Source: Caulifigura coniformis
Lineage (GTDB): Bacteria; Planctomycetota; Planctomycetia; Planctomycetales; Planctomycetaceae
Reading direction: 5' to 3'
Assembly: GCF_007745175.1 (NCBI RefSeq)
Contig: NZ_CP036271.1
Location: 186,001-250,000, forward strand
DNA: 64,000 nt
Shown here: positions 3,890-48,214 of the stretch, piece by piece
How positions within the stretch are numbered: position 1 is the first letter of the stretch
Layout of the letters: the number at the start of each line of letters is the position of its first letter
Program-made: the position numbers and the translations under genes
The notes under the pieces: generated by a model
The model's input: only the letters and a program-made list of their open reading frames with translations
What the model was told of the DNA's origin: nothing
The model's database searches: none

Positions 3890-3890
3890 C

Positions 3891-4577
3891 ATGCGAACAG
3901 CGATCGTGATGGCGCAGCATGGGCAACCGCAGCTGACGATCGCCTGCCTGCAGACGCTCCGCAGGCATCACGGGGACGAGCCGCCTGTCGTGCTGGTGGA
4001 TGACGGCAGTCCGCCCGGCGATCTGGAACAGGTGCTGGCAGCGGCGATTGCGAATCTCCAGATCGTCCGGCGGCCCCATCGGGGAGTGACGGCGGCATGG
4101 AATGCGGGGGCGGCGTGCTGCACGGCCGATGTCCTGATCTTCCTCAACAACGACGTCATCACCACCGGCCCCTGGGCCGACAGGCTTGCGGACCTGCTCG
4201 TTGACCGCCGCATTGCGGTCGCAGGCGTCGAGCGCCGGAGGGAGCGACACGTTTCGCCCGAGGTGCTGTCCAGGCTGCCCACCGGGGAATTCGCTGCCGG
4301 ATGGTGCTTTGCTGTTCGGCGCAGCGATTTCGAAGCGATTCATAGCTACCGCTCGGCGCTGCGCCTGTACTTCTCGGACACCGATCTGCAGTCGCGGCTG
4401 CTCGTTCGGGGCGGAACCGGTGGGGAGGGGATCGCGGCGGTTCCATTGCCGCTGAAGCATCTGGGTCATGCCACCACTTCGGCCTGCACGACCCGCCACG
4501 CGCAGTGGCAGGCCGATCGTCGCCGGTTCCAGCGGTTGTGGAAACGCGGCGGAAGCAAACGTCAGGCCTGCCGATGA
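3891..4577 (+). CDS. Family 2-like GT-A glycosyltransferase, 228 aa
   Basis: Start chosen at the ATG immediately after the previous stop, with GGAGGAGG upstream; a longer in-frame opening back to 3819 would only translate the previous gene's end. The protein starts with a TAIVMAQHGQPQLT strand, has the nucleotide-binding VLVDDGSPP turn (residues about 34-42) and the metal-binding-type LIFLNNDV (about 82-89), followed by VAGVERR and an FSDTDLQSRL acceptor-side segment. All match GT-A family-2 transferases that move a sugar from a nucleotide donor. It lacks membrane segments, so it should act in the cytoplasm. Its stop overlaps the next start (ATGA), indicating translational coupling with the following GT-B enzyme. 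Confidence 0.8.
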   Translation: MRTAIVMAQHGQPQLTIACLQTLRRHHGDEPPVVLVDDGSPPGDLEQVLAAAIANLQIVRRPHRGVTAAWNAGAACCTADVLIFLNNDVITTGPWADRLADLLVDRRIAVAGVERRRERHVSPEVLSRLPTGEFAAGWCFAVRRSDFEAIHSYRSALRLYFSDTDLQSRLLVRGGTGGEGIAAVPLPLKHLGHATTSACTTRHAQWQADRRRFQRLWKRGGSKRQACR

Positions 4578-5671: not shown

Positions 5672-5693
5672 AGCGACACCGCGGGAGAATCTC

Positions 5694-6635: not shown

Positions 6636-6639
6636 CGGC

Positions 6640-9600
6640 TCAGCGGACGGCCGTTCGGCCCATCGGCCGGCCCGCCTGTCCCCGTTCGACGGTCTCCCGC
6701 AGCTTCTGGATCGCGGGCGTCACGATCGGAACCTGGGTCGACTGAGTGACGACCGGATTGTCCGTCGTTCCACGGACGCTGATCGCCATCCACCCGCCGC
6801 CGAGCGCTTCGACGATCGGCTTCAGGATCGCGACCCGGCTGCGGGCCTGCGTGATGAACTGCAGGTCGAGCGCCTGGGTGATGTAGCCGACCGTGCCGCT
6901 GCCGGCGAGGCTGATGCTCGTTCCATCAAGCGCGATGCTGGAGAAGTTGAACTGGGCGTTCTTGATGCTGAACTCCCCGGACGCGCTGTTGAACATGAAG
7001 TTCTCGCCCGGGTTGAACGAGAGGAACTGGAACAGCTTGACGAAGACCGGCAGGTCGAGCAGGCGGGCCGGCTGGATCTGGACCCAGTTCTTGGTGCGGT
7101 CATCCGTCACGATCTTCATGGGATCCGAGCCGACGCCGCGGAGGCTGACGAAGCCCCGAATCTCGCCGAACAATCGCTCACGCCATTGGTTGGCCCGGGC
7201 GATGGCCTGGAGCTGCACGTCTTCGACATTGAGCTGCAGGGCGTAGCTCGACCGTTCCTGATTCAGCGGATCGATATTGGCTGTGGCATCGAGTGAGACA
7301 CGTCCGCCGTAAACCGCCGCCTTCAACGAGCGCCCGGCGAACCGGGGCTTCACCTGGCTCGGCTTCATGCTGCTCCATGCGGGAGCTCCCACCGAGACCT
7401 GCGCCCCTTCGACCTGAAAGGGCGACTGCAGGTCGGTAAACGGAAGATCCAGGATCGTCGCCTGCTCGAACGCCGCCGAGCCAACGGCCGAAACGGTTTC
7501 CCCGTCGAACTTGCCGCTGGTGATTCCGATCACGCCGCGGACGTTCTGCATCGGCACTCCGAGCGTGATGTTTCCTCCCTGCAGCGTCGCTTCGGTCGTC
7601 CAGTGGGCCGTCACCACCTCGCTGTTGAGCGCGCCTTTCATGTCGATTCCGAGCTTCAGATCGAACGGATTCGTCGGATTGGCGTGTGTGGCGATGTCTC
7701 GCACCGCCTTCGGAAGCGCGCTTCGCAGTTCGTCGTCGATCAACAGCTTCTTGACCGTGAGTTCCTGAAGGTGGAGCCGCCACCCGGGCGAGGCACCCTT
7801 CACGATTTCGAAGTAGGCGAAGTCCTGGTCATCCCGCCCGCCGGAATCGATGTTGAGGTAGGTCTGGTCGTGGTAGGCCTGCAGGCTGCGCACGATCACA
7901 CGCTCCCCATTCCACTTCGCCGCGCAGTTGAGATGCTCCCAGGCATAGGGAAGGTGCTTCGGCTTGATCCGCACATTCTTCAACTGAATGCTCGGAAGGA
8001 CGACCTGGGCCGGCCGCCCCGGGCTCCAGTGGATCTCCATTTCGTGGATGTCGGCCGAGCCGCTCGGGGCGAGTTCTTCCCAGGCCTTACTCATTTCCGG
8101 CAGCGCCCGGACCGAGGCCGACTGCAGGTCGATGTCCAGGGGCAGCGTCAGGGCCGTGAAGACGAGTTCCAGCTGACCGGGGGCCGGCTGAAGGGCGAAC
8201 GAGCCTTCGCCGGACACCTGGGTGACCCCCTGATCGGAGGCATGGACGCCCCGCAGGGTCCGGAACATCCAGGTGTCGGCCACCGACCGATCGAACTCGA
8301 TCACTCCCGTGACATCCCTGATGTAGTACGGGAAGCGTTCGTAGTTGAGCGTCCCGCGGGAGACTTTCCCGGTCAGGCTCGAGAGCACGAACTTCCGTCC
8401 CGCACCTTCGGGCTTGTGCAGGTGGATGTCCCAGTCGGCCACGCCGCTGGCCTTGAGCGATTCGAGCACCGGGTAGAGCTTCACGAGCGCCGGCTGCTTG
8501 GAATCGGAAAAGGCCCGCAGCAGCTGGGTATCGATCGGCAACTGCGTGACGTTGATATCCAGGGTGAGCGACGCGTCGGCCGACATCGCGCCGAGAACCC
8601 CTTTGAGCGTGACGGGCCGCCCGTTCGCCTGCCCGTAGAACTCGAGCTCGAACCGCGAACCTTCCTGACGCACGCCGCCGCGGATCGAACCGACATGGTA
8701 CGGAAACAATTCGTGCTTCACCGACCCATCGACAACCGACAGCTCCCGCAGCTTGATGGGCACGCCTTCGAAGGCCGAGTTGTACTCGACGTCGATCTTG
8801 AACTTCCCTTCCGGCTCCAGCTGGTCGTAGCGCACCTGCAGCGGCGCGGGAAGGTAGGAGCGGACTTCCGGTCCGATGCTGAGTTCGCTGGCCTGGAACG
8901 TGAAACGCCGTTCCGGCCGCGTTCCCTGAAACTCCCAGTGACCGTCGATGTTGAGCCTGCGATCGCCATTCGAGGCCATCAGGTTGCGGACCACGAGGCC
9001 GTCCTGGTTGATGGCCACATGTCCCTTGAGACCGTACAGCGGGGCGGGGATGTTGGGATTGGTCACCTGCCCGTCGCGCACTTCGGCGATGAGCGAGTAG
9101 GCCAGCGGCTCTCCCTTCTTCCTGCGGGACGCGTTGAACTCGACGCTCAGGTCGGCGTGCAGGCCGAGGTCTTCGAGCGTGTTTCCCGTCGAGATCGCCG
9201 GTTCGAGGACCGGCTCGGCTTCACCAGCGCTCGCGAGCCGGACCGCCCGATTCCGCCGCGCGCGTTCGTTCAACGCCGACAGGGTCGCCACCTGGTCGCG
9301 GGCCGCAGGAGAGACGCCCAGAATCGTCTGCACGATTCCGTTCAGGTCGATCTTGTCGCAGCGGCCCTTCACCGCCAGCGAGCCATGAGCGAAGTCGGCC
9401 CCGGCGCGGAGTTCGATCCGGCCGACGTGCTGGACCTGCCCCTCGATGTCGGTCGTGTATCCGTGTCGCGAGTCGGGAACGGCCGCGACGCGAATGCCGG
9501 CCGCGCGAAACTCGCTCGTGGCGGCGCCGTCGGCCGAGGCCATCTGGACGAGCACGGCCGCGTTCTCGACGATCAGGTCGGGCGGAGCCGTTTCGGAAGG

Positions 9601-10011
9601 ACGGGGGCTCGGGAGGTTACAGTTCCAGGTGGTCAGGTCTTTCCAGTTCGCCGCATCTGCGCACCTCAGGCGGATGAGCGGGTCGGTGATCCTCGCCCGC
9701 TTCACCAGGACCTTCTGCGATTGCAGCAGCAGGTCCATGTCGAGTTCGAGGATGAGCTCCGGTGCTTCGAACAGGGTTCGCCCGTCGGAGCCGTTGAGGA
9801 TGATCCCCTTCACCCGGACCTTTCCACTCCAGTCGGCCTTCGCGCTTTCGAAGGTCAGGTCCCAATCGGGAACCCGTTCCTGGATCTGCCGCAGCAGCGC
9901 CGCCTCGACCATCTTGTCGGTCTTGCGCCACAGAGCATGAGCGCCGATCGCGGCCGCTACGAAGCCGACCATGCCGATGAACAGTGAGCAGCGGAGAATT
10001 CCGCGGATCAT
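6640..10011 (-). CDS. AsmA-like / DUF3971-type giant envelope protein, 1123 aa
   Basis: An N-terminal membrane anchor (residues about 3-25, MIRGILRCSLFIGMVGFVAA) is followed by over 1000 residues of repeated beta strands without cysteine pairs. The C-terminal part has the AsmA-like C-terminal signature region (LLDLPVFVKLFQFLSF, then a FNFSSIALDGTSISLAGSGTVG strand series). Family members are bridge-like proteins that span the periplasm and are implicated in lipid transport to the outer membrane. ATG 10011 is chosen because it puts the anchor at the N-terminus; an ATG 13 codons upstream would add a polyproline stretch. It lies 57 bases behind the GT39-like gene on the same strand, so the pair is likely one operon. 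Confidence 0.8.
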   Translation of the reverse strand: MIRGILRCSLFIGMVGFVAAAIGAHALWRKTDKMVEAALLRQIQERVPDWDLTFESAKADWSGKVRVKGIILNGSDGRTLFEAPELILELDMDLLLQSQKVLVKRARITDPLIRLRCADAANWKDLTTWNCNLPSPRPSETAPPDLIVENAAVLVQMASADGAATSEFRAAGIRVAAVPDSRHGYTTDIEGQVQHVGRIELRAGADFAHGSLAVKGRCDKIDLNGIVQTILGVSPAARDQVATLSALNERARRNRAVRLASAGEAEPVLEPAISTGNTLEDLGLHADLSVEFNASRRKKGEPLAYSLIAEVRDGQVTNPNIPAPLYGLKGHVAINQDGLVVRNLMASNGDRRLNIDGHWEFQGTRPERRFTFQASELSIGPEVRSYLPAPLQVRYDQLEPEGKFKIDVEYNSAFEGVPIKLRELSVVDGSVKHELFPYHVGSIRGGVRQEGSRFELEFYGQANGRPVTLKGVLGAMSADASLTLDINVTQLPIDTQLLRAFSDSKQPALVKLYPVLESLKASGVADWDIHLHKPEGAGRKFVLSSLTGKVSRGTLNYERFPYYIRDVTGVIEFDRSVADTWMFRTLRGVHASDQGVTQVSGEGSFALQPAPGQLELVFTALTLPLDIDLQSASVRALPEMSKAWEELAPSGSADIHEMEIHWSPGRPAQVVLPSIQLKNVRIKPKHLPYAWEHLNCAAKWNGERVIVRSLQAYHDQTYLNIDSGGRDDQDFAYFEIVKGASPGWRLHLQELTVKKLLIDDELRSALPKAVRDIATHANPTNPFDLKLGIDMKGALNSEVVTAHWTTEATLQGGNITLGVPMQNVRGVIGITSGKFDGETVSAVGSAAFEQATILDLPFTDLQSPFQVEGAQVSVGAPAWSSMKPSQVKPRFAGRSLKAAVYGGRVSLDATANIDPLNQERSSYALQLNVEDVQLQAIARANQWRERLFGEIRGFVSLRGVGSDPMKIVTDDRTKNWVQIQPARLLDLPVFVKLFQFLSFNPGENFMFNSASGEFSIKNAQFNFSSIALDGTSISLAGSGTVGYITQALDLQFITQARSRVAILKPIVEALGGGWMAISVRGTTDNPVVTQSTQVPIVTPAIQKLRETVERGQAGRPMGRTAVR

Positions 10012-10065
10012 GCCGCAAGTCGGTGGCGGAGGTGGCGACGGGTGACGCATTCGTCGGGAACGGAA

Positions 10066-10087
10066 GATTCAGGATTCAGGATTCGGG
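10066..10087. repeat. Tandem GATTCAG repeat across the GT39 stop codon
   Basis: Three tandem copies of GATTC(A/G)G lie on the plus strand. Read on the minus strand they encode the last residues and stop of the GT39-like gene (Asn-Pro-Glu-Ser-stop). The same GATTCAGGATTC unit recurs at 41208-41238. Confidence 0.6.
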
Positions 10088-11316
10088 CGTTTGCCGAAGG
10101 TGGCGAACAGGCCGGCCGCGGCGAGGAGACTCATGGGATACTCCGCCGGGAGGCGGTAGCGGATCGAGCCGACGAAAACGGAGTGAATCGCCGCGAAGTA
10201 CAGGACCGGGCCCAGGCACAGCACCAGAGGAATCCATCCGGGCCGCCCTTTCCAGATCCCCAGCAGCGTGCCAGCAAACAGGGGAATGGACGACGCGAGC
10301 ACTGCGATCCACGCGGTCCAGTTGTTGAACTGGCCCGCATTGGGCCAGGGCTTCCAGTACCGGGCCAGCTTGATGAACCCGAGCTCGAGGGCGCGGAGGG
10401 GGTTGTTTTTCGCGAATTCCTTCGCCCGCCGCGCATACTCCTCGTTCATCTCGTATTCAGACATCGTCGCAAGCAGGTTCTCGCGATCGAAGAAGCTCAT
10501 CTCGCTGTCGCCGGTGGCATTGGGGTTCAGGCCGTCGTACAGGCTGGGGCCCATCCAGAGCGTGGTCAGTACGAAGTGTCCCGTGACCCGCTGGTTGCGA
10601 ACGGCCCAGGGCAGAAGCGTCAGGAACGTCGTTGCGCCGAGGACGGCCGCAACGCCCCATGTGATCGGCCTGGCCCGCCCCGCGACGATCGCGCACAGGG
10701 CGACGAATGGGGCCCACAACAGCCAGCTCGGACGCATGTAACACGCCAGGCTGATCAGTGCGCCACAGATGCCGGCTTGGCAGAGCAGTTTGCCAGAAGA
10801 CGCCTTCTGATCGCCGAGGCCCTTCAGCAGCGATGCGGCCGGAATCAGGCTGGCGACCAGTGTCACGGCGAAGACGGTCTCGGAAAGAAACAGTGGTGAG
10901 AACGCGACGAACGTCGGCAGCACGGCGGTGATCGCAGCCGCGAGGAGCGCCGTGCGTACGTCGAACAGGCGTCGCCCGAGGAGATAGACGAGCCAGCAGC
11001 CCAGGGCGGCGACAGCCGAGAGCAACAGTCGTGCTGCCAGGGGGGATTTCCCGAACGTCACGAATGAAAGCGCCAGCACGGCCGGGAAGCCTGGCATGCG
11101 CATCACGCGTCGCGGCGGGGTGTAGTCGGCGTACTCGCGACCTTCCGCGAGATTGTCCGCCAGGTGCCAGTAGCCTGCGGCGTCGCCGGGAATGAGGTCT
11201 TGCCCGGGCGGATTGCGGGGAACGCGTGCGTCGATCGCGATGGCCGCGCCGGCGCGTGCGGTGAAGGCGATTGCCAACACCAGCGCCAATCGCCAACTCC
11301 ATCCGCCGCGATCCAT
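10069..11316 (-). CDS. GT39-type polytopic membrane glycosyltransferase, 415 aa
   Basis: A membrane protein with about 9-10 hydrophobic helices. Residues about 30-70 carry the first-loop region of PMT/ArnT-type enzymes (DLIPGDAAGYWHLADNLA and FPAVLALSFV), which use lipid-linked sugars on the outer leaflet of the inner membrane. ATG 11316 is chosen because an AAAGGGG Shine-Dalgarno precedes it; a TTG six codons upstream is the alternative. The C-terminal codons are made of the GATTCAG repeat. A second, distantly similar membrane protein lies at 55383-56945. Substrate is not predictable. Confidence 0.8.
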   Translation of the reverse strand: MDRGGWSWRLALVLAIAFTARAGAAIAIDARVPRNPPGQDLIPGDAAGYWHLADNLAEGREYADYTPPRRVMRMPGFPAVLALSFVTFGKSPLAARLLLSAVAALGCWLVYLLGRRLFDVRTALLAAAITAVLPTFVAFSPLFLSETVFAVTLVASLIPAASLLKGLGDQKASSGKLLCQAGICGALISLACYMRPSWLLWAPFVALCAIVAGRARPITWGVAAVLGATTFLTLLPWAVRNQRVTGHFVLTTLWMGPSLYDGLNPNATGDSEMSFFDRENLLATMSEYEMNEEYARRAKEFAKNNPLRALELGFIKLARYWKPWPNAGQFNNWTAWIAVLASSIPLFAGTLLGIWKGRPGWIPLVLCLGPVLYFAAIHSVFVGSIRYRLPAEYPMSLLAAAGLFATFGKRPNPES

Positions 11317-11753
11317 CGCACCGCCCCTTTCCAACCGTCCCTGCCGAATCCGTCCCTGGCCGGCCTGATCACGGTCGAATCACCGTGGGATGGTACGATG
11401 CGGCGGGAAAACGGGTCAATATGCTCCGCGGCCGGCAGGAATTGCGGGTCGCAGGAGCCGCTTCCCGAAAGTTTCGACGTGGAGATCAGTCGCCCGCCCA
11501 CAACATCTGGTAGGCGTTCACCTGCTCAAGTGGAATTTGTGCACAAAATCATCAAATTGCTTTACGTCTTGAGCAACTCGGCTTAATTTGCTCGTGCACT
11601 CGCGAGTCGCTTCGGCTTGCGGATGTGAAAGGGTCGGCGGCTCGGAGTCGCTGGCTCCCGCGTCCTGGTTCGCTGTAGGAACGGCGGCCGGACGACTGAA
11701 TGGGGGGAACTGATGGATCGGTTCCGGGTCTCAATTTGAGGGAAGGGATTCCC
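11317..11753. other. Gap of about 440 bases without a convincing gene
   Basis: This lies between the divergent GT39-like gene and a small plus-strand ORF. Open frames on the plus strand exist but continue from the antisense of the GT39 gene and have no recognisable protein features. An AT-richer island at about 11540-11592 stands out against the GC-rich background and is a plausible promoter region for the small ORF; no clear hexamer pair was found. Confidence 0.4.
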
Positions 11754-11924
11754 ATGCTGGCAATCTGCCGTTGCGGTCTGTTCCGCTTTTTCCCGGTGGC
11801 ATCGTGTGGCCTCATTGCGTGGGTGGTGACCAACCGCCTCCGCAAGGTGAAGGCGCCCGCCGTGTCACCGAGTGAATACGAACGTCTCCGCCGGATCTAC
11901 GGCACGCGCCCCAGCATCAACTGA
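11754..11924 (+). CDS. Small hypothetical membrane-like protein, 56 aa
   Basis: Chosen start ATG 11754 has GGAAGGG six bases upstream; a longer in-frame opening from 11700 has none. The product begins MLAICRCGLFRFFPVASCGL, one hydrophobic helix, followed by a basic NRLRKVK patch and a soluble PSEYERLRRIYGTRPS end, so a small single-pass protein is likely. It sits 75 bases before the amidotransferase-like gene, same strand. No family is recognised and a chance ORF is possible. Confidence 0.4.
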   Translation: MLAICRCGLFRFFPVASCGLIAWVVTNRLRKVKAPAVSPSEYERLRRIYGTRPSIN

Positions 11925-11999
11925 GCCCCACGGCCGCGGCTGCCGTGTGTTCTCCGGCCGCAATGGACTGACGCGTCTCGAACGAAGGGAATCGAACCG

Positions 12000-12782
12000 A
12001 TGTGTGCCAAGCCTCTGATTGGAATCAACGCGGATTTTCGTCCTGCCAACAAGAAGGACTCCGTTCCTTTCACCTGGATTAACACGGGCTACTACGACAG
12101 CATTTCGGCGTCCGGCGGCGTGCCGGTGATCATTCCTCCGGTGGCGGAAGACGCGGACCTCAAGCAGATCCTGCAGACGCTGGACGGAGTGGTGCTCACG
12201 GGCTGCAAGCTCGACCTGGACCCGGTGAACCTCGGACTCGAGCGGCATCCTTCGACCCGTCCGATGCCCGCCCGCCGCGAAGACTTCGATCGCCGGCTGG
12301 CCCGCTTCTGCCGCGACATGAAAGTTCCCACGCTGGCCATCGGCGTCGGCATGCAGGAACTCAACGTCGTTTGCGGCGGCACGATCTTCCAGCACGTTCC
12401 GGAAGACGTGATGAAGTCGCTGCACCACCGCGACCCGGTGGAGAGCTGCCTGCGGCACGTCATCGAGATCGTCCCGGAAACTCTGATGGACCAGGTCTAC
12501 GGACCGGGTGAAATCCGCGTGAACAGCGACCACCACATGGCCGTCGACCAGTGTGCTCCGATGTTCCGCGTTTCCTCCACCTCGATGGACGGCGTGATCG
12601 AATCGTACGAATCGATGGAGGACGACTGGTGGGTGATGGGCGTCCAGTTCCACCCCGAGAACCAGTCCGCCTCGGCCCTCGACCTGCAGGTGTTCGAAGT
12701 GTTCCTCCAGGGGTGCAAGGAACAGGCTCACCGCGAAATGCCGACGCTGTCGTTCGAGACGGCCCGGCGGGCTGCGGCGTAA
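12000..12782 (+). CDS. Class-I glutamine-amidotransferase-like (peptidase C26) protein lacking the catalytic cysteine, 260 aa
   Basis: The fold order matches gamma-glutamyl-GABA hydrolase (PuuD) relatives: PLIGINADFR at the start, GVVLTGCKLDLDP (residues 63-75) for the oxyanion region, the nucleophile elbow at 111-122, and GVQFHPE near the end carrying the catalytic His and Glu. Active members read G-I-C-R-G-x-Q at the elbow; here it reads AIGVGMQ, so Gly115 takes the place of the cysteine. The usual GGxD is also altered to GCKLD. The protein is therefore probably not a hydrolase by the normal mechanism. A rho-independent-type terminator follows. A pseudo-enzyme or a changed chemistry are both possible. 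Confidence 0.8.
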   Translation: MCAKPLIGINADFRPANKKDSVPFTWINTGYYDSISASGGVPVIIPPVAEDADLKQILQTLDGVVLTGCKLDLDPVNLGLERHPSTRPMPARREDFDRRLARFCRDMKVPTLAIGVGMQELNVVCGGTIFQHVPEDVMKSLHHRDPVESCLRHVIEIVPETLMDQVYGPGEIRVNSDHHMAVDQCAPMFRVSSTSMDGVIESYESMEDDWWVMGVQFHPENQSASALDLQVFEVFLQGCKEQAHREMPTLSFETARRAAA

Positions 12783-38438: not shown

Positions 38439-39878
38439 TCAACCGATCTCCGGAACCTCGTATCCCTTCCGGTATTCCCGCTTCAGGTACTTGTTCCCCT
38501 CGGCCGCTCCCTCGCCGACGAACTTCTCCCCCTTCTCATCCAGCTCGAGCACGCTGCTCAGCTTCACGCTCTTCGAATCGAGCGCCACGCCGTAGTTGTG
38601 CACATGCTCCTGCATCTGGTCGAGAAGGTCGTTCCAGGGCTGGTAGTCCTTCCGCATCGACTCCGCCTTCTCGCGCGTGAAGTCTCCGCCGGCCCGGTAC
38701 GCGATGTTCGCCAGGTTGCACCACCCCGACGAATCGTTCCCGAGTTCGATCTCGGCGTTCAGGATCGACCGGTCCCGCTTCCGCAGCGCGTCCACGAAGT
38801 TCTGCTGGTGGCCGGCCCCGCTGTTCCCCTTGAACTCCCTGATCTTCTTCCCGTCCTTGTCGAAGGCCGCTCCCTTGCCGCGCTGGCCGGAGAAATAGCC
38901 CCCCTCGCAGTGGATGACGTAACCTGACGTCGCCCCGCGGAAGTTCAGCGACTTCTTGTCCCCCGGCGCCGCCGGCAGGTTGCTGAGCCCCAGCAGGACC
39001 GGGATCGAGCCCGTGTCGTAATAGACGAAGTGCACGTTGGGCGTTTCGCCCGCATCGTCCCATCCGAGTCGCCCGCCGCCCGCCATCACGCGCTTCGGCA
39101 TCCGCGGCTTGTCCAGCAGGCCGTTGTTGCGGGCGTCGTCGAGAACATGAACGCCCCAGTTCCCCATCTCCCCGGAGCCGGTGTTCCAGTCCCAGTGCCA
39201 GTCGTAGTGGAACTTCTCACGGAACAGCGGAAGGTCCTGGGCCGGTCCCAGCCAAAGGTCGTAATTGATTTCCTTGGGGATCTCGAGCGGCGTCTTCCGC
39301 TTCCCGATGCTCTGACGCACGCCATACCGCACGACCTCGATGAACTCGATCTGGCCGAGCGCCTTGTCCTCGTGCAGGTATTTCTTGATCTCCGCCTGCA
39401 TCGGGTCCGAGCGCTGCTGCGTTCCCAGCTGCACGATCTTGTCGTACTTCCGGGCCGCCTTCACCACCTGCGCCCCTTCCCATTGGCTGTGCGACAGCGG
39501 CTTCTCGACGTACACGTCCTTCCCCGCCTGCATCGCCCAGATCGACGCCAGGCAATGCCAGTGGTTGCACGTCGTCACGACGACCGCGTCGATCGACTTG
39601 TCCTCAAGCATCCTCCGCAGGTCGGCGTAGGGCGTGGCCTGCGGATACTTCTTGAGGAAGTCTCCCACCCGCTCATTGTCCGGATCGGTGATCGCCGCAA
39701 TTTCCGCTCCGCTGACGCTCGTAAAGGCCTTCGCATCCTCACCGCCGCGGACGCCCAGCCCGATCACGCCGATGCGAACCCGGTCATTCGCGCCATAGGC
39801 CCGCGAAAACGGAACGGCGAGGGACACACCGGCCGCAAGGCCGGCCTTGAGAACGCTTCGACGATTCATGGAGCGCAT
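38439..39878 (-). CDS. Tat-exported Gfo/Idh/MocA oxidoreductase, 479 aa
   Basis: Tat-type signal (MNRRSVLKAGLAAGVSLAV) then a Rossmann domain with IGVIGLGVRGGEDAKAF, VVVTTCNHWHCLAS, KDVYVEKPLSHSQWEG (conserved EKP Lys) and a GNWGVHVLDDAR active-site segment. Enzymes of this family oxidise or rearrange sugars and inositols with bound NAD(P). ATG 39878 is preferred because AAGGTGA lies seven bases upstream; the ATG three codons later lacks this spacing. The secreted or periplasmic form is a planctomycete trait. Confidence 0.9.
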   Translation of the reverse strand: MRSMNRRSVLKAGLAAGVSLAVPFSRAYGANDRVRIGVIGLGVRGGEDAKAFTSVSGAEIAAITDPDNERVGDFLKKYPQATPYADLRRMLEDKSIDAVVVTTCNHWHCLASIWAMQAGKDVYVEKPLSHSQWEGAQVVKAARKYDKIVQLGTQQRSDPMQAEIKKYLHEDKALGQIEFIEVVRYGVRQSIGKRKTPLEIPKEINYDLWLGPAQDLPLFREKFHYDWHWDWNTGSGEMGNWGVHVLDDARNNGLLDKPRMPKRVMAGGGRLGWDDAGETPNVHFVYYDTGSIPVLLGLSNLPAAPGDKKSLNFRGATSGYVIHCEGGYFSGQRGKGAAFDKDGKKIREFKGNSGAGHQQNFVDALRKRDRSILNAEIELGNDSSGWCNLANIAYRAGGDFTREKAESMRKDYQPWNDLLDQMQEHVHNYGVALDSKSVKLSSVLELDEKGEKFVGEGAAEGNKYLKREYRKGYEVPEIG

Positions 39879-39981
39879 GGAATCACCTTCAGGAAGACGC
39901 GAAATCAACATTCTCGAGACAGCAAACTCGACAATACTTCAGCGTAACCGCTCCCTGTCACTCGTGCGACCACTCCGTCGC

Positions 39982-40103: not shown

Positions 40104-41201
40104 CTACATCCGCAGGTCCAGGTCCTTCCACGTCCGCTCGTCATTCGACGCCAGCACCGCATCCGCAACCGCCTGCGCCCGCGCCCCGTCATCAAATCCC
40201 GGAACGGCCGGCCGCCCATCGACGATCGCCGACGTCAGTTCGTACACCAGGTCATACCGGAACACCGTGCTCGGCACCCCTTCATGCGGATTGCGCGGGC
40301 TGCCGGGCAGTTTCAGGAACTCTTCCGGAACGGCCACCTTCTCCAGCGACTTCCCCTGCTTGCCGAGCAGGATGTGGTTCGGATCCTGCAACCGGTACAC
40401 GGCCGAGCCGAGCGTGCCGTTCACTTCGGCCCACTCGTGGCCGAAGCCATCGTTGTGGTAGCCCTTCATCACGGTGCTCCCTTCCCACACGCCGACGGCA
40501 CCGTTCTGGAATCGGCCGATCAGCGCCGACCAGTCGTCCACTTCCGACGGAGGGCACGGCTTGCCGTCGACCGTCCGGTCCCGCGGGCAGAACGTCGCCA
40601 CCGCACCGCAGATGGTCGTCAGCGGTCCCATCAGGTCCATCGCGAAATCGATGCGGTGGATCGTCATGTCGAACAGGTCGCCGCCCCCGGCCGTCTTCTT
40701 GTACTGACGCCAGCCCCAGCTCGTTTCCGGCCAGTCGAGGAACCGCTGCGACCGGAAATGACGCAGCTCGCCAAGCTCGCCGTTCTTCAGCAGGTGACGC
40801 AGGTACCGCATGGAAGGCGCGAAGCGGTACGTGAAGGCCGTCATGTGACGCACCTTCATCTTCTCGGCCGCCCGGTACATCTCCTTCGATTCCTCGAAGT
40901 TCAGCCCCAGCGGCTTCTCGCACATCACGTGCTTCCCGCCCGCGATGCACGCCAGCGCGATCGGCCTGTGCGTATCGTTCGGCGTCGCGATCACGACCGC
41001 ATCAACGTCGGGATCGGCCGCGATCTCCTCGTAGCTCGTCGTGATCTTCGAGACGCCCCAGTCCTTGATCCGCTTCTCGAGCAGCTCGACGTTGGGATCG
41101 CAGACAGCCACCAGCTCCGATCGCTTGTCGATCCGGATTCCGGGGACGTGGTGGTAATCAGAAACGGCGCCGGCGCCGATGATCGCGTAACGGACAGGCA
41201 T
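40104..41201 (-). CDS. Gfo/Idh/MocA oxidoreductase, cytoplasmic type, 365 aa
   Basis: No signal peptide. Rossmann start VRYAIIGAGAVSDYHHVPG, then VIATPNDTHRPIALACIAGG and HVMCEKPLGLNFEES (EKP Lys), with a GGGDLFDMTIHRID active-site segment in the C-terminal half. The protein should act on sugars in the cytoplasm with NAD(P). No Shine-Dalgarno is evident; the ATG directly abuts a block of GATTCAG repeats. It is followed after a 225-base gap by the Tat-exported homologue on the same strand. Confidence 0.9.
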   Translation of the reverse strand: MPVRYAIIGAGAVSDYHHVPGIRIDKRSELVAVCDPNVELLEKRIKDWGVSKITTSYEEIAADPDVDAVVIATPNDTHRPIALACIAGGKHVMCEKPLGLNFEESKEMYRAAEKMKVRHMTAFTYRFAPSMRYLRHLLKNGELGELRHFRSQRFLDWPETSWGWRQYKKTAGGGDLFDMTIHRIDFAMDLMGPLTTICGAVATFCPRDRTVDGKPCPPSEVDDWSALIGRFQNGAVGVWEGSTVMKGYHNDGFGHEWAEVNGTLGSAVYRLQDPNHILLGKQGKSLEKVAVPEEFLKLPGSPRNPHEGVPSTVFRYDLVYELTSAIVDGRPAVPGFDDGARAQAVADAVLASNDERTWKDLDLRM

Positions 41202-41329: not shown

Positions 41330-43342
41330 TCACGCGATGTATCCGAACGTCTGCATGAACGCCAGCACCGCCAGCACGAGGAAAAACACCCCCGCCAGCA
41401 GCAGCACCGTCGTGATGAACCACCCCGGCCGCAGAGGTCGGGGCAGCAGGCTGTGGTTGACGTACAGTGTATGCCAGCAGCTGATGCCGAGACCAAAATT
41501 CATCATGTTGGTCGCCAGCTTCACATGCACCGTCGGCTTCGGGAACAGCGTCAGCGTGCAGATGCCCACCACGAAGTACAGGCACAGCACCGAGAAGTAG
41601 ATGTACTTGATCTGGCCCGGATCGACGCGCTGCAGCCGCTTGCTGCCGCTCCAGAGCAGGTCCACCCAACGGCGGACGAATCCGTCGATCATGCCCACCT
41701 GCGCCGTCGACAGCGTCAGGAAGCCGCAGAACAGCGTCATGAACCAGCAGAAGCTCGCCAGGCCCGCGCTGCTTTCCAGCACCCGGTCATACACCCCCTG
41801 CGACGTCATGATGGCCGTCGTCCAGTCGTTCACCGGTGTTCCCCGGCGCAGGAAGACGAGTGACAGCATGCTCGGCAGCGCGATGCCGACGAAACACGCC
41901 GGCATCCACACGATGAACTGGTCGCGACGGACGCGGTTCACCCAGCCCCGCCAGCGCGGAAGCGATTCGGGAGTCACCTCGAACACCGACCCGACGTGAG
42001 ACAGCTTCACGTCCACGCCCCCCACCATGCTTGGAATGGCGCCCACATGGGAGCCCATGCCCCAGCCCTGGTCGCGCGTCAGGCCGCTGATCGGCGTGTT
42101 CGTCAGCCCGCCGTTGCCGGCGATCGCCGCAAACGCCGCCAGAAACGCGATCATGCTCAGGTCGATCGGCGGAATGCCGTGGCCTCCCAGGAGCGACTGG
42201 AAAATATTGACGACGCCGTCGCCGTCCGTGATTCCGTCGCCGTCCAGGTCGACGTACCCCTTCTCGGGAATGCCGTCGTTGTTGGTATCCGTCAGGCGGA
42301 AGAACGGCCCCTTCGAGGGATCAGCGGGAAGCGTCACCGTGACGCTCTCATTCTTGATCCCTTTCACGGTCACCGTGGCGTCCGGTTTTCCGTCCCCGTC
42401 GAGATCCGGCCAGTACAGGTTTTCACCAACGGAAACGAAGAGATCCGGTTTCCCGTCCCCGTCGACGTCCAGCCCGCCGTCGTCCGGCTTCCCGTCCTCG
42501 TTCTTGTCCGGGCCGGTCACGTTCTTGATGAACGCCAGCGTCGGTTCGATCGCATCGGGATGGCCGTCGCCGTCCCAGTCCAGTTCGTCCGGATCGAGGA
42601 TGCCGTTGCCGTTCTTGTCTTCGGCGACACGCGTCGGAATCGTGCCGAACCTGAAGAAGCCCGTCCCGATTTCTTTCCACGTTCCCGCGTTGGAATAGAA
42701 CATCGCCAGGACCAGCAGGAACCCGAGCACGACGACGATCTTGAACGTCATCAGCGCCTTGAGCGAACGATACACCTTCCCGCCGAAGATCAGCGGCGTG
42801 CAGCTCAAGAGGAACACGCCATACGACAGCCACATGATCTTTTGTGGGTCTCCCGGCGTCTCTTCTCCAGGGATCCTCCCGAACACCAGCACGAACAGCG
42901 GCGTCGCCGCGTTCTTCGACAGGTACGGGATGATCGCGCCGACGTCGACGATCAGGTACAGGATCAGCCACAGCGCCGGCCCCGGAAGGGTCCGGAACTT
43001 GCCGTTCATGATCGGCTCGCCGCTGTACAGCGTGTACCGGCTGATCTCGATGTTGTAGATCACCTGGCACAGGATGCTGACCGTCGCCAGCCACAGCAGC
43101 GCACCGCCGTACTTGGCCGTCACCGTCGGCCCCATCAGCCATTCACCGCCGCCGATGGCGGCGCCGCCGGCGATGATGCTCGGGCCGAGCATCGCGAAGA
43201 AGTGCCGGAAATTGAATCCCGGCGCTTCGGGAAGTTCGGCTACGTTCCAGGGCGGGATCGCCTTGGAGCCGACCTGCAGCTTTCGGGAAGAGGACTCTCC
43301 CGGATGGACGGAAGCAACCTCACCCGGGATGGGCTGGGACAT
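41330..43342 (-). CDS. Nramp-like transporter with calcium-binding-loop insert, 670 aa
   Basis: Ten or more membrane helices. MLGPSIIAGGAAIGGGEWLMG (about 51-71) corresponds to the first Nramp helix, but the metal-site DPGN is replaced by GGGE, so the substrate may not be Mn2+ or Fe2+. Residues about 241-380 are a soluble insert with seven Asp/Asn-rich loops of EF-hand/dockerin type (for example DKNGNGILDPDE at 242-253, DWDGDG, DVDGDG, DLDGDG, DTNNDG). By Nramp topology this loop between helices 5 and 6 faces the periplasm. GAGGAG lies upstream of the ATG. Followed by the GATTCAG repeat block. Confidence 0.78.
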   Translation of the reverse strand: MSQPIPGEVASVHPGESSSRKLQVGSKAIPPWNVAELPEAPGFNFRHFFAMLGPSIIAGGAAIGGGEWLMGPTVTAKYGGALLWLATVSILCQVIYNIEISRYTLYSGEPIMNGKFRTLPGPALWLILYLIVDVGAIIPYLSKNAATPLFVLVFGRIPGEETPGDPQKIMWLSYGVFLLSCTPLIFGGKVYRSLKALMTFKIVVVLGFLLVLAMFYSNAGTWKEIGTGFFRFGTIPTRVAEDKNGNGILDPDELDWDGDGHPDAIEPTLAFIKNVTGPDKNEDGKPDDGGLDVDGDGKPDLFVSVGENLYWPDLDGDGKPDATVTVKGIKNESVTVTLPADPSKGPFFRLTDTNNDGIPEKGYVDLDGDGITDGDGVVNIFQSLLGGHGIPPIDLSMIAFLAAFAAIAGNGGLTNTPISGLTRDQGWGMGSHVGAIPSMVGGVDVKLSHVGSVFEVTPESLPRWRGWVNRVRRDQFIVWMPACFVGIALPSMLSLVFLRRGTPVNDWTTAIMTSQGVYDRVLESSAGLASFCWFMTLFCGFLTLSTAQVGMIDGFVRRWVDLLWSGSKRLQRVDPGQIKYIYFSVLCLYFVVGICTLTLFPKPTVHVKLATNMMNFGLGISCWHTLYVNHSLLPRPLRPGWFITTVLLLAGVFFLVLAVLAFMQTFGYIA

Positions 43343-43536
43343 CGCGTCTGCTCCTCGTGAGCGTTCGAATGGAGACGACGTGTGTGCCCGCGGTAGAGAC
43401 GGCGACGCTGCCGAGGCAGGGTCCCGTCGGCCCGCGAGCCGTGAATTTTGAATTCACAGTTAAATCGAACCCGCCGCAATGGTCAAATACTCGGCCCGCC
43501 TCGCGGGGCCGCCTTGCAGCTTTGTCATCATCACAG

Positions 43537-43560
43537 GTGCCACGGCCCTGTCAGCCGTGC
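43537..43560 (+). repeat. Copy of the 24-bp palindromic intergenic repeat
   Basis: Starts GTGCCACGG and ends AGCCGTGC; the central CACGGC / GCCGTG arms can pair. Confidence 0.65.
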
Positions 43561-43643
43561 ATGTGCCAAATGGCTCTCCCGTCCGGCAGGGCGACGCTCC
43601 CGCCGAGCCGCCGATGACGAAAGGGACGCCGAGAATGGGTGGC

Positions 43644-43660
43644 ACTGGCTCCGCCAGTGT
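43644..43660. repeat. Short CACTGGC/GCCAGTG hairpin
   Basis: A 7-bp stem with a 3-base loop, preceded by GGTGG; it ends 46 bases before the start of the lipoate-ligase-like gene. Confidence 0.5.
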
Positions 43661-43706
43661 CGAACGTCCCCAGCGCCCAACCACCATCAAGGCAGGAACA
43701 CCACGC

Positions 43707-44354
43707 ATGCTGGAGGTCATCGTCGAACCCAACGCCCGCTCCGGCGCCGACAACATGGCCATGGATGAGTCCCTCCTCGTCTCCGCCATCGACAAGAAAA
43801 CGCAGACCCTCCGCCTCTACCGCTGGGAAGAACCGACCGTGTCCCTCGGATATTTCCAGAAGGACGACGACCCCGTCCTCACAGGCCGCTTTGCAGGCCT
43901 CCCCAGCGTCCGCCGGCTCTCCGGCGGCGGCGCGCTCCTCCACGACCGCGAGCTGACCTACTCCATCGCTCTGCCGGATGGCCATCCGCTCGCCGACGCC
44001 CCTACCGAACTTTACGACCAGGTCCACGCCGCCCTCGTCGCGTTGCTCAACTCGCTCGGCGCGCCGGCCCATGTCCGCGGCGAAAAGTTCAACGAGCCCG
44101 AGCCGTTCCTCTGCTTCGGACGCGGCGACCCGCGCGACATCGTCCTTTCCGGCTTCAAGATCGTCGGCAGCGCCCAGCGCCGCCGCAAAGGCGCCATCCT
44201 CCAGCACGGCGCGCTCCTCCTCGAGCGCTCTCCCCACGCCCCCGAATTCCCCGGCCTCTTCGACCTCGCCCCCGAAACCCGCCAGGACGACCAACCGCTG
44301 ATGCACGCCATCGCCACCGCCCTCCAACAGATCCCCGCACTGGGGCAGTCGTAA
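43707..44354 (+). CDS. Lipoate-protein ligase A family protein, 215 aa
   Basis: BPL/LplA/LipB fold: MAMDESLLVS early, RRLSGGGALLHDRELTYSIA (residues about 56-75, the conserved glycine-rich ligand site), and GFKIVGSAQRRRKGAILQHG with the catalytic Lys near residue 152. The family attaches lipoate or octanoate to E2 or H proteins, and short planctomycete members may act as transferases. ATG 43707 is the first that directly precedes the domain; the frame extends to 43479 through a repeat-rich, non-conserved stretch. Followed by a series of hairpins. Confidence 0.85.
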   Translation: MLEVIVEPNARSGADNMAMDESLLVSAIDKKTQTLRLYRWEEPTVSLGYFQKDDDPVLTGRFAGLPSVRRLSGGGALLHDRELTYSIALPDGHPLADAPTELYDQVHAALVALLNSLGAPAHVRGEKFNEPEPFLCFGRGDPRDIVLSGFKIVGSAQRRRKGAILQHGALLLERSPHAPEFPGLFDLAPETRQDDQPLMHAIATALQQIPALGQS

Positions 44355-44750: not shown

Positions 44751-46031
44751 TCACCCAAACATCTCGCTCACCACTTCCCCGCCGTCCACAATCCGGATCG
44801 GCCGCCCGATCGGACTGAAATTCTCCGTCTTCGGATCCACGCTCAACGCCTTGCAGATCGACGAAAACAGGTCCGGCACCGTCACCGGGCGGTCATCAAT
44901 CGATGATCCATCGGCCGACGATTTCCCGATCACCTGCCCGCCACGGATCCCGCCGCCGGCCACCAGCGCGCTGAACACCCGCGGATAGTGATCCCGCCCG
45001 GCCCGCGGATTGATCTTCGGAGTCCGCCCAAACTCCCCGACCCATAGCACGACCGTTCTCTCGAGCAGCCCGCGCTCCTTCAGGTCGCTGATCAATGCCG
45101 CCATCGGCGAGTCGATCTGCTGGCACAATTGGGGAACGCGCTCGAAGTTCTCGAAATGCGTGTCCCAGCCGTCGAGTCGCACTTCGACAAACGGCACCCC
45201 CTTTTCCACCAGCCGCCGCGCCAGGAGACAACCTTTCCCGAAGTTGCCACGCCCATACTTCGCCTGCACTTCGGCCGACTCGCCGCGCAGGTCGAACGTC
45301 GACACCTGCGGACTCAGCACCATCCGCGACGCCTTGCCGTAGAGCTGCCGCTGGTTTTCCACGACCTGTGTCGCTCCCCGGGCCGCGAATTCCTTTTCGA
45401 GATCGCCCAGGAGCCCGAGCCTTCGGCTGTAACGCAGGTCCGGAACCGTCGCCGCCACGTTGCGCGGCAGGTCCCCCGGGCTCTCGACCACGAACGGCTC
45501 GAAGTCGACGCCCAGAAATCCCGCCCCCTCCGTCCGTCCGATCGACACCACCGCCGGCAGGTCGCTCCCCGGCGTCGCCAGCTCCTTCGCGACCGCCGAG
45601 CCGAAATGCGGATGCTTGAGCCCCCCCGAAGGCAGGTAACCCGTATGCAGCTGGTACTGCGCCCGCTGGTGGTTCCCTTCCTTGTTCGTCAGCGAGCGGA
45701 TCAGCGCGCACTCCTTCAGAACGCCCGCCGTCGCCGGCAGCGAATCCGAAATCTGCACACCCGGGATCGACGTCGAAATCACTTTCGTGCTTCCGCCGTT
45801 CTCATGCTTCGGCTTCGGATCGAAGGTCTCGAACTGGCTCGGCGCCCCCGCCATGTACAGCAGGATCATCGACCGTCCCTGCTTCTTCAGCTCCTCCGCA
45901 TGCAGCCCGCACACCTGCGACAACGACAGCAATCCCGCGGTACTCGCCGCCGTCGAAACCGAACGCAGGAATGAGCGGCGGCTCAGGCAGTCACGATTCA
46001 GCGTGACATATTCGTGCTGGTAAATGGACAT
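44751..46031 (-). CDS. DUF1501 protein paired with a DUF1549/1553 gene, 426 aa
   Basis: Signal with SRRSFLRSVSTAASTAGL, a Tat-like start. DUF1501 marks: SMILLYMAGAPSQFETFDPK, LIRSLTNKEGNHQRAQYQLH, GKGCLLARRLVEKGVPFVEV, LDGWDTHFENF, VLWVGEFGRTPKINP, and an end with VTVPDLFSSICKALSVD. It lies 142 bases after the DUF1549/1553 gene on the same strand, the standard planctomycete arrangement in which the two proteins are thought to act together. Ends in a double hairpin terminator region. Confidence 0.92.
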   Translation of the reverse strand: MSIYQHEYVTLNRDCLSRRSFLRSVSTAASTAGLLSLSQVCGLHAEELKKQGRSMILLYMAGAPSQFETFDPKPKHENGGSTKVISTSIPGVQISDSLPATAGVLKECALIRSLTNKEGNHQRAQYQLHTGYLPSGGLKHPHFGSAVAKELATPGSDLPAVVSIGRTEGAGFLGVDFEPFVVESPGDLPRNVAATVPDLRYSRRLGLLGDLEKEFAARGATQVVENQRQLYGKASRMVLSPQVSTFDLRGESAEVQAKYGRGNFGKGCLLARRLVEKGVPFVEVRLDGWDTHFENFERVPQLCQQIDSPMAALISDLKERGLLERTVVLWVGEFGRTPKINPRAGRDHYPRVFSALVAGGGIRGGQVIGKSSADGSSIDDRPVTVPDLFSSICKALSVDPKTENFSPIGRPIRIVDGGEVVSEMFG

Positions 46032-46173
46032 CGTTCACCTGGCTTCGAATCAGAGACAGGAACATCACATCGCAACAGGCCCGGCGCCGCCGGCTCAGTC
46101 AGTCAGAGTCCAGACGGCCTCTGTCGGAGAAGACCAGCTGGGCCGGCGGCCTGCCGTGCATCGCGTGATTCCG

Positions 46174-47976
46174 TCATCGCTTCGTCAGGAACTCGCTGCT
46201 GTTCAGCAGCGACCAGAAAATGTCTTCGAACGCCTCGTTCCTCCGGCCCACGGTCTTGATGTAGGCCAGATTGATTTCCCGTTCCTTCTCCGTCGGCTCC
46301 CGCGACAGCACTCTCAGGTACAGCTCATCCAGCGCCGCCCCGTCATCGCTGTTCTGCGTCAGGATCCGCCCCAGCGCCGTATCGCCAGTCGCCCGCGTGA
46401 GCGGAGCAATCGTGTCCGCGTTCATCATGAACAGCACCTGGGGAATGTTCCCCAGGATGTCCGCCTGTGGCGTTGAGGGGTCGTAACCGAACAATTGCTG
46501 GAATCCCCGCCGACCCGAGTTGCCTCGGCCGTACGGGCCCCGCCGCATCGATGCCAGGCCCGGCATCTCTTCCACACCCAGCACCTGCGCCATCGCGTTG
46601 TAGATCTGGTCCGATCGCAGCCTCGTCGGCGTTGCGGCCGCGAACTTCACCGTGTCGTTCGGACTCCCGGCCAGCTGCCGCTGGTACGCCTGCGTGGAGG
46701 TGATCGTCCGCAGCAGCCATTGAATGTCGTAGCCGTGGCTTGCAAACCCGTTCGCCAGCGCTTCCAGCACGTCTTCCTGCACGCCGCTCCGCTTGGGCCC
46801 CATGTCGTCGATCGGCATGAAGAACCCTTCGCCAAGCAGCTCACCCCACATCCGGTTGACGAACGCCTTCCGGAACCACGGATTCGATTTCGACGTGATC
46901 GCCTTCGCCAATGCTTCCCGACGATCAAGGTCGCTCGAGTTCCCCCTCTGCCGCTGGCCGGAGAGGAAGAACACTGGCTGCATCATCGTTCCCTTCGCCG
47001 TCGGGTCATTGAGGTCCGGCATGTAGTGCTCGGAAGAGCCTCGCCCTTCGCGCGGCGGCGCCGGCAGCCCTTCGATCTCCTTCATGCTCAGCGCGCCATC
47101 CTTGTCGGCGTCCCCCTGCGAGATCAGAAATCCGAACAGCCGTTCGAATCGCGGCGAGGCCTTGGCCTCAGCGGCCGTCACTCTTCCGTCGCGGTTGCGA
47201 TCGACAAATCGAGCCAGCTCCGCCGGTTTCGGACGAACATCCGGCCCCGAGAACGACGTCACTTCAAAGTCGAGAAGCCCTGCATCCGGCTGCCGCCGCA
47301 CCGACACCCGTGGAAGGTACGCCGCCAGTTCGTGGAACTGCTCGCGCTTCCACCCGTCGGTCGGATGGTCATGACAGTTGGCGCACTGCAGCTGAATTCC
47401 CAGGAAGATCCGCGACACCTCGGCCGCGATCTCCTCTGCGTTCCCCGTGTGCGCAAACATCAGTGCCGTCTGCCCGTCGTCCTGCACCTTTCCCGTCGCC
47501 GTGATGAGCGCCGTCGTGATCTCCGACCACGGCCGGTTTGCCGCCAGCTGCGCCGTCATCCATTCCTCGAACACGCCCTGCGCCCCGCGCGCCCGCTGCT
47601 CCGTCGCATGCCCAAAAATTACTTCGCCCCAGTAAGCTGCCCACAGGTCCGAGTACCCCTTCGAATCCAGCAGCCTGTCAATGAGCTTCGCCCGCTTGTC
47701 CGCATCGGGATCCAGTCCGAACAGCGTCACTTCCCGCGGCGTCGGAATCGTCCCCGCCAGGTCCAGGCTCACCCGCCTCAGGAAGTCTTCATCGGAAGAA
47801 ATGCCTGCCGGAGTCACCCCCGCGGCCTCAAAACTCTTCTCGAGCAGCCGGTCGATCTCCCGGGCCATCTTCACTTCGGAGGGATGCTCCCGGCGTCCCT
47901 CCGGGACTTCCCCCTGCAGGGAAGCGGTCGCCAGGCACACCAGTCCGATCAGCAGGCAGCGAGCGACGGAATTCAT
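46174..47976 (-). CDS. DUF1549/DUF1553 cytochrome-like protein with internal EF-hand pair, 600 aa
   Basis: Signal peptide (MNSVARCLLIGLVCLATAS); GGAGGAG stands before the ATG, which rules out the longer opening to 48129. The DUF1549 half (about 35-240) has LDLAGTIPTPREV and one heme-type CxxCH motif at 198-202 (QCANCHDHP). Residues 259-270 (DRNRDGRVTAAE) and 289-300 (DADKDGALSMKE) are two EF-hand loops. The DUF1553 half (about 330-600) holds RREALAKAI, NRMWGELLGEGF and DILGNIPQVLFMMNA. With the adjacent DUF1501 protein it forms a secreted pair of unknown chemistry. Confidence 0.9.
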   Translation of the reverse strand: MNSVARCLLIGLVCLATASLQGEVPEGRREHPSEVKMAREIDRLLEKSFEAAGVTPAGISSDEDFLRRVSLDLAGTIPTPREVTLFGLDPDADKRAKLIDRLLDSKGYSDLWAAYWGEVIFGHATEQRARGAQGVFEEWMTAQLAANRPWSEITTALITATGKVQDDGQTALMFAHTGNAEEIAAEVSRIFLGIQLQCANCHDHPTDGWKREQFHELAAYLPRVSVRRQPDAGLLDFEVTSFSGPDVRPKPAELARFVDRNRDGRVTAAEAKASPRFERLFGFLISQGDADKDGALSMKEIEGLPAPPREGRGSSEHYMPDLNDPTAKGTMMQPVFFLSGQRQRGNSSDLDRREALAKAITSKSNPWFRKAFVNRMWGELLGEGFFMPIDDMGPKRSGVQEDVLEALANGFASHGYDIQWLLRTITSTQAYQRQLAGSPNDTVKFAAATPTRLRSDQIYNAMAQVLGVEEMPGLASMRRGPYGRGNSGRRGFQQLFGYDPSTPQADILGNIPQVLFMMNADTIAPLTRATGDTALGRILTQNSDDGAALDELYLRVLSREPTEKEREINLAYIKTVGRRNEAFEDIFWSLLNSSEFLTKR

Positions 47977-48214
47977 CAGACTCCTCCCGCTGGACAGACC
48001 GGTCGAACTTCCAGAACCGTTCGGAACGATGGCGGAGCAGTGAATCCGGGGGAGGATGCGAGAGCCTCCGCCACCGTCCGAAAGGTTGCTGGGAATGGAA
48101 CACGGAAACCAACCCCGCGGTTCCGGCAATTCCGCCCAACCTCAGCCAGAAAGCCGCGATGCCTCACGGAATGACAATTCCAGGACGCTCGCGCAAGCCA
48201 CTACCCACTACCCA

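Follow-up and report, generated by a model that had tools for sequence, protein, structure and literature searches.

A calcium-loop domain in the TM5-TM6 loop of an Nramp-related transporter from Caulifigura coniformis and its relatives

The window, a 64,000-nucleotide stretch that forms part of the single 6.76 Mb contig of the Caulifigura coniformis genome, carries one uninterrupted frame for a transporter, with two oxidoreductase genes and a divergent lipoate-protein ligase-type gene beside it (Table 1). The same gene order, lplA (68% identity over 192 residues), transporter and first Gfo/Idh/MocA oxidoreductase (86%), is found in a genome of the same genus (L052). A DUF1501 and PSCyt2/PSD1 gene pair (44754-48129) adjoins the locus, and neither an Rfam family at gathering score nor a tRNA was found in the 64-kb window.

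Table 1. Features of the transporter locus (positions in the window; residue numbers of the transporter in brackets)
Feature	Position	Strand	Remark
Nramp-related (NF037982) transporter gene, 670 aa	41330..43342	minus	intact ORF; 133.4 bits
Gfo/Idh/MocA oxidoreductase, downstream, 128 bp after transporter	40104..41201	minus	adjacency kept in L052, 86% identity
Second Gfo/Idh/MocA oxidoreductase	38439..39911	minus	not found beside the L052 gene
Lipoate-protein ligase A/B-type gene, upstream, divergent	43479..44354	plus	beside the L052 gene too
TM1 motif GGGE (64-67) in place of Nramp DPGN	43142..43153	minus	profile alignment
TM6 with GNGGLTN (398-422), IAFLAAFAAIAGNGGLTNTPISGLT	42077..42151	minus	N415 invariant in A1 and A2
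Insert domain, TM5-TM6 loop (240-376), ~140 residues	42215..42625	minus	between conserved P236 and N379
Loop 1, DKNGNGILDPDE (242-253), 12-residue EF-hand-type	42584..42619	minus	ligand columns D/N/E in 47/47
Loop 2, DWDGDGHPDAIE (255-266), 12-residue EF-hand-type	42545..42580	minus	ligand columns D/N/E in 47/47
Loop 3, DKNEDGKPD.. (279-287)	42473..42508	minus	not conserved; low model confidence
Loop 4, DVDGDGKPD.. (292-300)	42434..42469	minus	mostly conserved where aligned
Loop 5, DLDGDGKPD.. (313-321)	42371..42406	minus	aligned in about half of rows
Loop 6, DTNNDGIPE.. (352-360)	42254..42289	minus	variable
Loop 7, DLDGDGITD.. (365-373)	42215..42250	minus	ligand positions 1, 3, 5, 9 kept

The transporter scores 133.4 bits against the NCBIfam model NF037982, "Nramp family divalent metal transporter" (Nramp_1), for which the curated cut-off is 50, and the same model matched all 51 rows of our alignment A2 at E <= 0.001. 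A2 comprises 51 of 81 proteins, those of the best 80 of 586 loci plus the window; left out were two rows with X, eight in which the N-terminal anchor was missed by the pattern and, by hand, 20 near-copies and cut-off or badly started rows. An AF2 model of the transporter built from the 51-row alignment has a pLDDT of 86.8 and a pTM of 0.88. In VIA-align its best match is DraNramp (6c3i; Z 29.5, rmsd 3.1, 379 residues aligned), with BfraNramp, human NRAMP1 and DMT1 at Z 28.6-29.4, the YcsG model at Z 27.6, EleNRMT at Z 27.4 and carriers outside the Nramp group at Z 23.9 and below. Taken together, the NF037982 match, the model and this ranking indicate that the protein is an Nramp/LeuT-fold carrier. 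Its likeness to the canonical Slc11/Nramp proteins (DraNramp, BfraNramp, DMT1) extends over ~364-402 residues, with the best rows at Z 28.6-29.5, and its TM1 can be aligned with that of BfraNramp. By contrast with these proteins, it lacks both DPGN and MPH (the latter not found in the predicted TM6, residues 398-422), gives no match to the Pfam Nramp model PF01566 at E values up to 10, and carries an insert of ~140 residues between TM5 and TM6.

The profile alignment with BfraNramp sets ggGEW opposite DPGNW, in agreement with a preliminary description of this DNA, which had noted the replacement of DPGN by GGGE. All rows of alignment A1 read GGGEW or AGGEW at this position, L034 alone having GAGEW, and the distant members looked at read G-x-G-E, with or without the insert. 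The motif is thus a mark of a wider group and was rejected as a correlate of the insert; of the proposed pairing of an altered metal site with a calcium sensor, the altered site stands, but it is not tied to the insert. The window's own genome contains a single PF01566 match at E <= 0.001, at ~2.03 Mb (L001, G000:C1:2035232-2036392), whose TM1 reads G-S-G-E and not DPGN, so that by the PF01566 test this genome is without a canonical Nramp.

Excerpts of PMC10606218 describe Pfam 1566 as the Slc11 family together with "orphan" and NRMT outgroups that differ at the metal site. The window transporter shares its fold with the NRMT protein EleNRMT and with YcsG (by Z score) and, like the Slc11 outgroups as these excerpts describe them, is without the Slc11 metal-site residues; the excerpts on NRMT, orphan, YcsG and PxpT proteins mention no calcium-loop insert, whereas the window transporter has one. 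As for substrates, NrmT is reported to transport Mg2+ and an outgroup member probably Mn2+ (PMC4072509), YcsG is argued to import Mn2+ and raises cell Mn2+ (PMC10448178), and PxpT, an Nramp-family protein that shares 50% identity with YcsG and is argued to carry 5-oxoproline, is needed for growth on that compound (PMC13274462). The protein treated in PMC8041893 keeps DPGN and was set aside. Given the absence of DPGN, the lack of a Pfam Nramp match and the catabolic neighbours described below, a metal is a doubtful substrate for the window transporter.

The insert had been placed in the preliminary description at about residues 241-380 (window 42203-42622), between helices 5 and 6 and presumably in the periplasm. 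The AF2 model agrees, with predicted TM5 (190-216) and a broken TM6 (398-424) on its two sides, and by analogy with DraNramp this loop presumably lies outside. The flanking residues P236, invariant in A1 and A2, and N379, kept in at least 90%, are common to members without the array. Lysines and arginines total 20 for the loops presumed to face inwards and 19 for those presumed to face outwards, 14 of the latter in the TM5-TM6 loop, a count that does not discriminate the topology. Seven D-x-[DN]-x-[DN]-G-x-x-[DE] motifs start at residues 242, 255, 279, 292, 313, 352 and 365, and none occurs in the rest of the protein. Shuffles of residues 240-378 gave a mean of 0.06 motifs and a maximum of 2; with seven reached in 0 of 5000 shuffles and the host matched to DraNramp at Z 29.5, the reported seven calcium-type loops in a large insert of an Nramp-fold transporter were borne out. 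Aspartate accounts for 19% of residues in the insert and for 2% elsewhere in the protein. Loops 1 and 2 match the 12-residue EF-hand-type pattern, while the other five match only its 9-residue part.

In the full AF2 model the insert is predicted to be beta-rich, its 10-residue blocks scoring 82-93 except at 271-290 (58-59) and 351-360 (61), and no helix is modelled between residues 229 and 379; a model of the insert alone (27 rows) is weaker (pLDDT 75.9, pTM 0.67). Foldseek of the insert model against solved structures returned 115 matches with E values of 10 or less, none better than E 1.3; VIA-align against 600 chains gave none at Z >= 2, and the insert profile matched no sequence of a solved structure at E <= 0.01, negative results that carry no proof. 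Loops 1 and 2 lie back to back, their starts 13 residues apart with no helix between them. Both have D/N/E at positions 1, 3, 5, 9 and 12, as in a 12-residue EF-hand loop, but the insert as modelled has no helix-loop-helix layout; at E <= 1, matches to three EF-hand Pfam models were obtained for 4, 6 and 8 of 27 inserts, the window insert not among them. Pfam FG-GAP_3 matches the window insert at E 7.9e-5 with 23.6 bits, below its cut-off of 26.9, and 15 of the 27 inserts at E <= 1, and no propeller was matched in the fold searches; TSP_3 matches one of the 27 weakly (E 0.53). Dockerins consist of two loop-helix repeats ~22-24 residues apart. The earlier comparison of the loops with dockerins was therefore dropped: loops 1 and 2 start 13 residues apart without an intervening helix, and no dockerin model is among the Pfam matches.

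The insert shares its loop consensus with the Dx[DN]xDG proteins (EF-hand, FG-GAP "calcium blades" and thrombospondin type 3), and loops of this type placed between strands are known to bind Ca2+ (PMC3123361). It differs from these in that loops 1 and 2 follow directly on each other and lack EF-hand helices, that the host is an integral transporter and that no solved fold was matched. A precedent for how such an insert might work structurally is Tk-subtilisin, in which a calcium insertion of 25 residues binds four Ca2+ and is needed for folding (PMC3123361). It too is a calcium-loop insertion inside a host fold, although its host is a soluble protease unrelated to the window transporter.

The loops are present in 47 of the 51 A2 rows. 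Every one of these 47 has D, N or E in the ligand columns, which are 1, 3, 5, 9 and 12 in loops 1 and 2, and 1, 3, 5 and 9 in loop 7; the positions between the ligand columns hold mostly other residues, and these vary; loops 3 to 6 are variable across the rows. Among the 67 loop-bearing rows of the tree set described below, 63 have normal spacing in both head loops (the exceptions being L082, L018, L021 and L022) and 63 in the last loop (L059, L018, L021 and L022); L082 has extra residues inside loop 2 and L059 inside its last loop, and L018, L021 and L022 carry a single loop only. Between the window and L052, dN is 0.34 and dS 1.30 for the insert (dN/dS ~0.26), and dN 0.24 and dS 0.70 for the core (~0.34). 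As judged from the alignments, the ligand positions of loops 1, 2 and 7 are under strong constraint, as for metal ligands, and calcium would be the ligand. With so few conserved sites per transporter, the calcium buffering suggested earlier seems unlikely.

The domain is real and common to many relatives. In the same-genus protein (L003/L052) this site is occupied by four such loops in an unbroken frame, over 131 residues against 141 in the window. A whole-protein search of 59 genomes, the window's own and those of relatives, gave a match in 49 at E <= 0.001; the 49 distinct open reading frames considered comprised L001, the 30 best loci and a further 18 that were selected by hand, and of these frames 18 carry one loop or more, one (L034) has a loop-free insert and 30 have none. 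In 81 genomes of the window's family, its own included, a query of TM1-5 matched 60 at E <= 1e-30. A query of TM5 plus loops 1 and 2, with matches judged by query range, gave 28 matches through loop 2 in 26 of the 81 genomes, three weak matches running past loop 1 (G353:C125, G351:C63 and G331:C521; 36-41% identity) being excluded from the 28, and 11 further matches of at least 49% identity that stop no earlier than the end of loop 1. This is a fairer count than that in the best 80 of 586 loci, which were ranked by likeness to an insert-bearing query, so that the share of loops there is no frequency. The NF037982 family is far wider than the loop-bearing subfamily; in a phylum-wide draw it was matched in 157 of 294 genomes at E <= 0.001, and in 111 over the cut-off. 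Loop-bearing records among the best 80 of 586 loci are titled Planctomycetota, Acidobacteria or Verrucomicrobiales and are metagenome assemblies, with groundwater, palsa, ALOHA and Red Sea among their titles.

Such arrays recur at one site in many genomes, and that of the window is a single open frame with a dN/dS of ~0.26 against L052; a misassembly or frame error was rejected on these grounds. Likewise, conserved transporter blocks on both sides of the insert in the A2 rows led us to reject a separate protein fused by error. Relatives have 0, 1, 3 and, by a loose count, up to 9 loops at the one insertion site, and the domain is absent from L014, L016, L017, L019 and L020; with relatives that have no loop or only one, the domain is dispensable for the carrier.

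To trace its history, a tree of 102 cores was computed with the insert columns omitted, from the window, 76 of the 80 loci (four cut-off ones dropped) and 25 hand-picked members of the 49 open reading frames; the method was a quick one, with SH-aLRT as the only support and one very long branch (L001). The states at its tips (loops 67, none 21, other insert 14) need 7 changes, against a mean of 32 when shuffled, and loops are found in two clades. Between these clades the cores are 38% and the head modules 61% identical (520 pairs), while pairs within the larger loop clade, with cores at 55%, have head modules at 62%, no higher. The high identity between clades may reflect motif constraint or transfer of a cassette; since the head module is no more alike within the larger clade, motif constraint alone may explain the 61%. 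The proteins of L057 and L065, both from metagenome assemblies, have cores 97.4% identical and arrays of 124 and 76 residues (L057:6634-7062, L065:6634-6918) at 68% identity, and the L057 array resembles those of L070 (69%) and L067 (65%), with cores at 52%. In these sequences it looks as if the middle part of the array had been exchanged.

Other variations were seen along the family. A clade of 14 rows (L112-L123, L125 and L128) has another insert at the same site, of 139-161 residues by the cut used and without Asp loops; Pfam gave no match above chance for three of its rows or for L034, which has the same kind of insert. L076 (5998-9458) holds tandem paralogues, the first with a three-loop array and the second with the short TM5-TM6 loop, and L061 a second, loop-free paralogue downstream that is interrupted by unread bases. 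Insertions also occur in other loops predicted to lie outside, in TM3-TM4 of L035 (1019-2965) and in TM7-TM8 of L010, L012, L015, L021 and L022. The transporter of L097, which is the locus of L011 (G030:C6:107606-109514), changes frame after TM7 and so occupies two frames; the frameshift lies either in the gene or in the assembly.

An oxidoreductase, SMP-30 lactonase or related catabolic gene lies on the same strand at most 200 bp away in 19 of the best 80 of 586 loci (L053, L057, L065, L072, L074, L103, L104, L105-L108, L111, L117, L119, L121, L126-L128 and L131), in a scan whose seeds were picked after the neighbours had been seen and whose sole background figure is the frequency of Gfo/Idh/MocA genes, which are common (42 matches in the window's own genome). 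L052 is a twentieth such locus among these 80 and the window an additional one; in the other 60, some with short flanks, no catabolic neighbour was seen, although gene calling was crude and overlooked even the transporter in L052, L068, L078, L112 and L124. Four of the 19 (L117, L119, L121 and L128) have the other insert, and six (L105-L108, L111 and L126) are one close group sharing an operon. This operon (~830-12200), in which the transporter is loop-bearing, encodes a 2-hydroxyacid dehydrogenase, an epoxide hydrolase-like protein, Ldh_2, a cyclase, an SDR and the E1 and E2 of a 2-oxoacid dehydrogenase, E2 not being seen in L106; its genes may give a hint of what is transported. A universal stress protein gene adjoins the transporter in L059, L060, L062, L064 and L085, and the adjoining gene has no Pfam match in L077, L079, L081 and L098 (for L079 and L098, copies were scanned). 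Overall, the catabolic neighbours, which are of sugar or hydroxy-acid type, lean towards an organic solute as substrate but fall short of proving it.

The reading that we favour, and hold about equally likely to be right or wrong, is that of a GGGE LeuT-fold carrier whose TM5-TM6 outer loop is a calcium-stiffened, mainly structural periplasmic domain, and whose substrate may be an organic solute. The outer loop would have expanded into a calcium-binding domain with a fixed base, in which two EF-hand-type loops stand back to back on the TM5 side and a single DxDxDGxxD loop lies on the TM6 side; between them, DxDxDGxxD loop-plus-strand units would vary in number and kind among relatives. Periplasmic calcium would fold and stiffen this domain. 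In LeuT-fold carriers the TM6-type helix moves with the outer gate, and in the window transporter the domain would sit where TM5 leads into that helix. Its main job would then be structural, as a calcium-stabilised cap or scaffold that, more speculatively, brings order to the outer gate or anchors a partner in the periplasm or at the surface. The neighbour genes and PxpT suggest, as a weak and speculative step, that the substrate is perhaps a small organic solute, such as a sugar-acid or hydroxy-acid, and not a transition metal.

The position of the domain, joined directly to TM6 in the predicted outer loop and with kept loops at both membrane-near ends in sequence, would also fit a sensor or gate in which occupancy by external Ca2+ acts on the outer gate and thereby switches transport or tunes it. 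We regard this as unlikely: relatives do without the domain or have fewer loops, the loop number varies freely, and the domain is present in all of the records with groundwater, palsa, ALOHA and Red Sea in their titles, which fits poorly with one calcium set-point. A variable middle on a fixed base, together with relatives that have no domain, argues for a structural or docking part rather than a fixed-site sensor. Docking itself, with the calcium domain binding a periplasmic protein or polysaccharide and the transporter serving as its anchor, would account for the different middles on nearly identical carriers (L057 and L065) and for the unlike insert that a further clade carries at this site, either of which fits a partner-specific part; yet no recurrent partner gene adjoins most of the best 80 of 586 loci, the insert has no fold match and its loops are not in a dockerin layout, and we consider this reading quite improbable.

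A divalent-metal carrier, whose loops would gather Mn2+, Ca2+ or Mg2+ near the transporter entrance, is suggested by the Nramp fold, by the NCBI name of NF037982 and by what the cited excerpts say of relatives, YcsG raising cell Mn2+ (PMC10448178) and NrmT-type proteins moving Mg2+ or probably Mn2+ (PMC4072509). It is nevertheless improbable in view of the change from DPGN to GGGE, a TM6 without MPH, the missing Pfam Nramp score, the many loop-free GGGE members and the catabolic neighbours in 20 of the best 80 of 586 loci. Variable length and number, and the many relatives without an array, are what would be expected if Asp-rich repeats were a functionless, low-complexity expansion tolerated in an outer loop. 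That reading is disfavoured and very unlikely, given that all 47 rows keep the ligand columns of three loops and that spacing is normal in 63 of 67, that the insert has a dN/dS of ~0.26 and that its records are titled with different phyla. A wider proposal would see a novel design among LeuT-fold carriers: a modular calcium domain subject to recombination, placed in the outer loop beside the mobile gate helix, with three loops as its fixed base and a middle that can be exchanged, which couples external calcium to organic-solute uptake in planctomycetes and their kin. We doubt strongly that it will hold in full.

To our knowledge, outer-loop regulatory domains are rare in bacterial LeuT-fold carriers. 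The preliminary description had taken the architecture to be undescribed, and we likewise found no description of a calcium-loop domain on an Nramp-like transporter in the open-access papers searched. Members of the subfamily carry 0, 1, 3 or as many as 9 loops at a single site, and L076 has a tandem pair with and without the domain, a natural series that makes possible a direct test of whether external calcium steers the outer gate of a LeuT-fold carrier. The label "Nramp family divalent metal transporter" on planctomycete proteins may mislead as to their substrate. If the modular proposal were true, the L057 and L065 arrays and the insert of the other clade would mark out the TM5-TM6 loop as a general port at which domains for regulation or docking are received.
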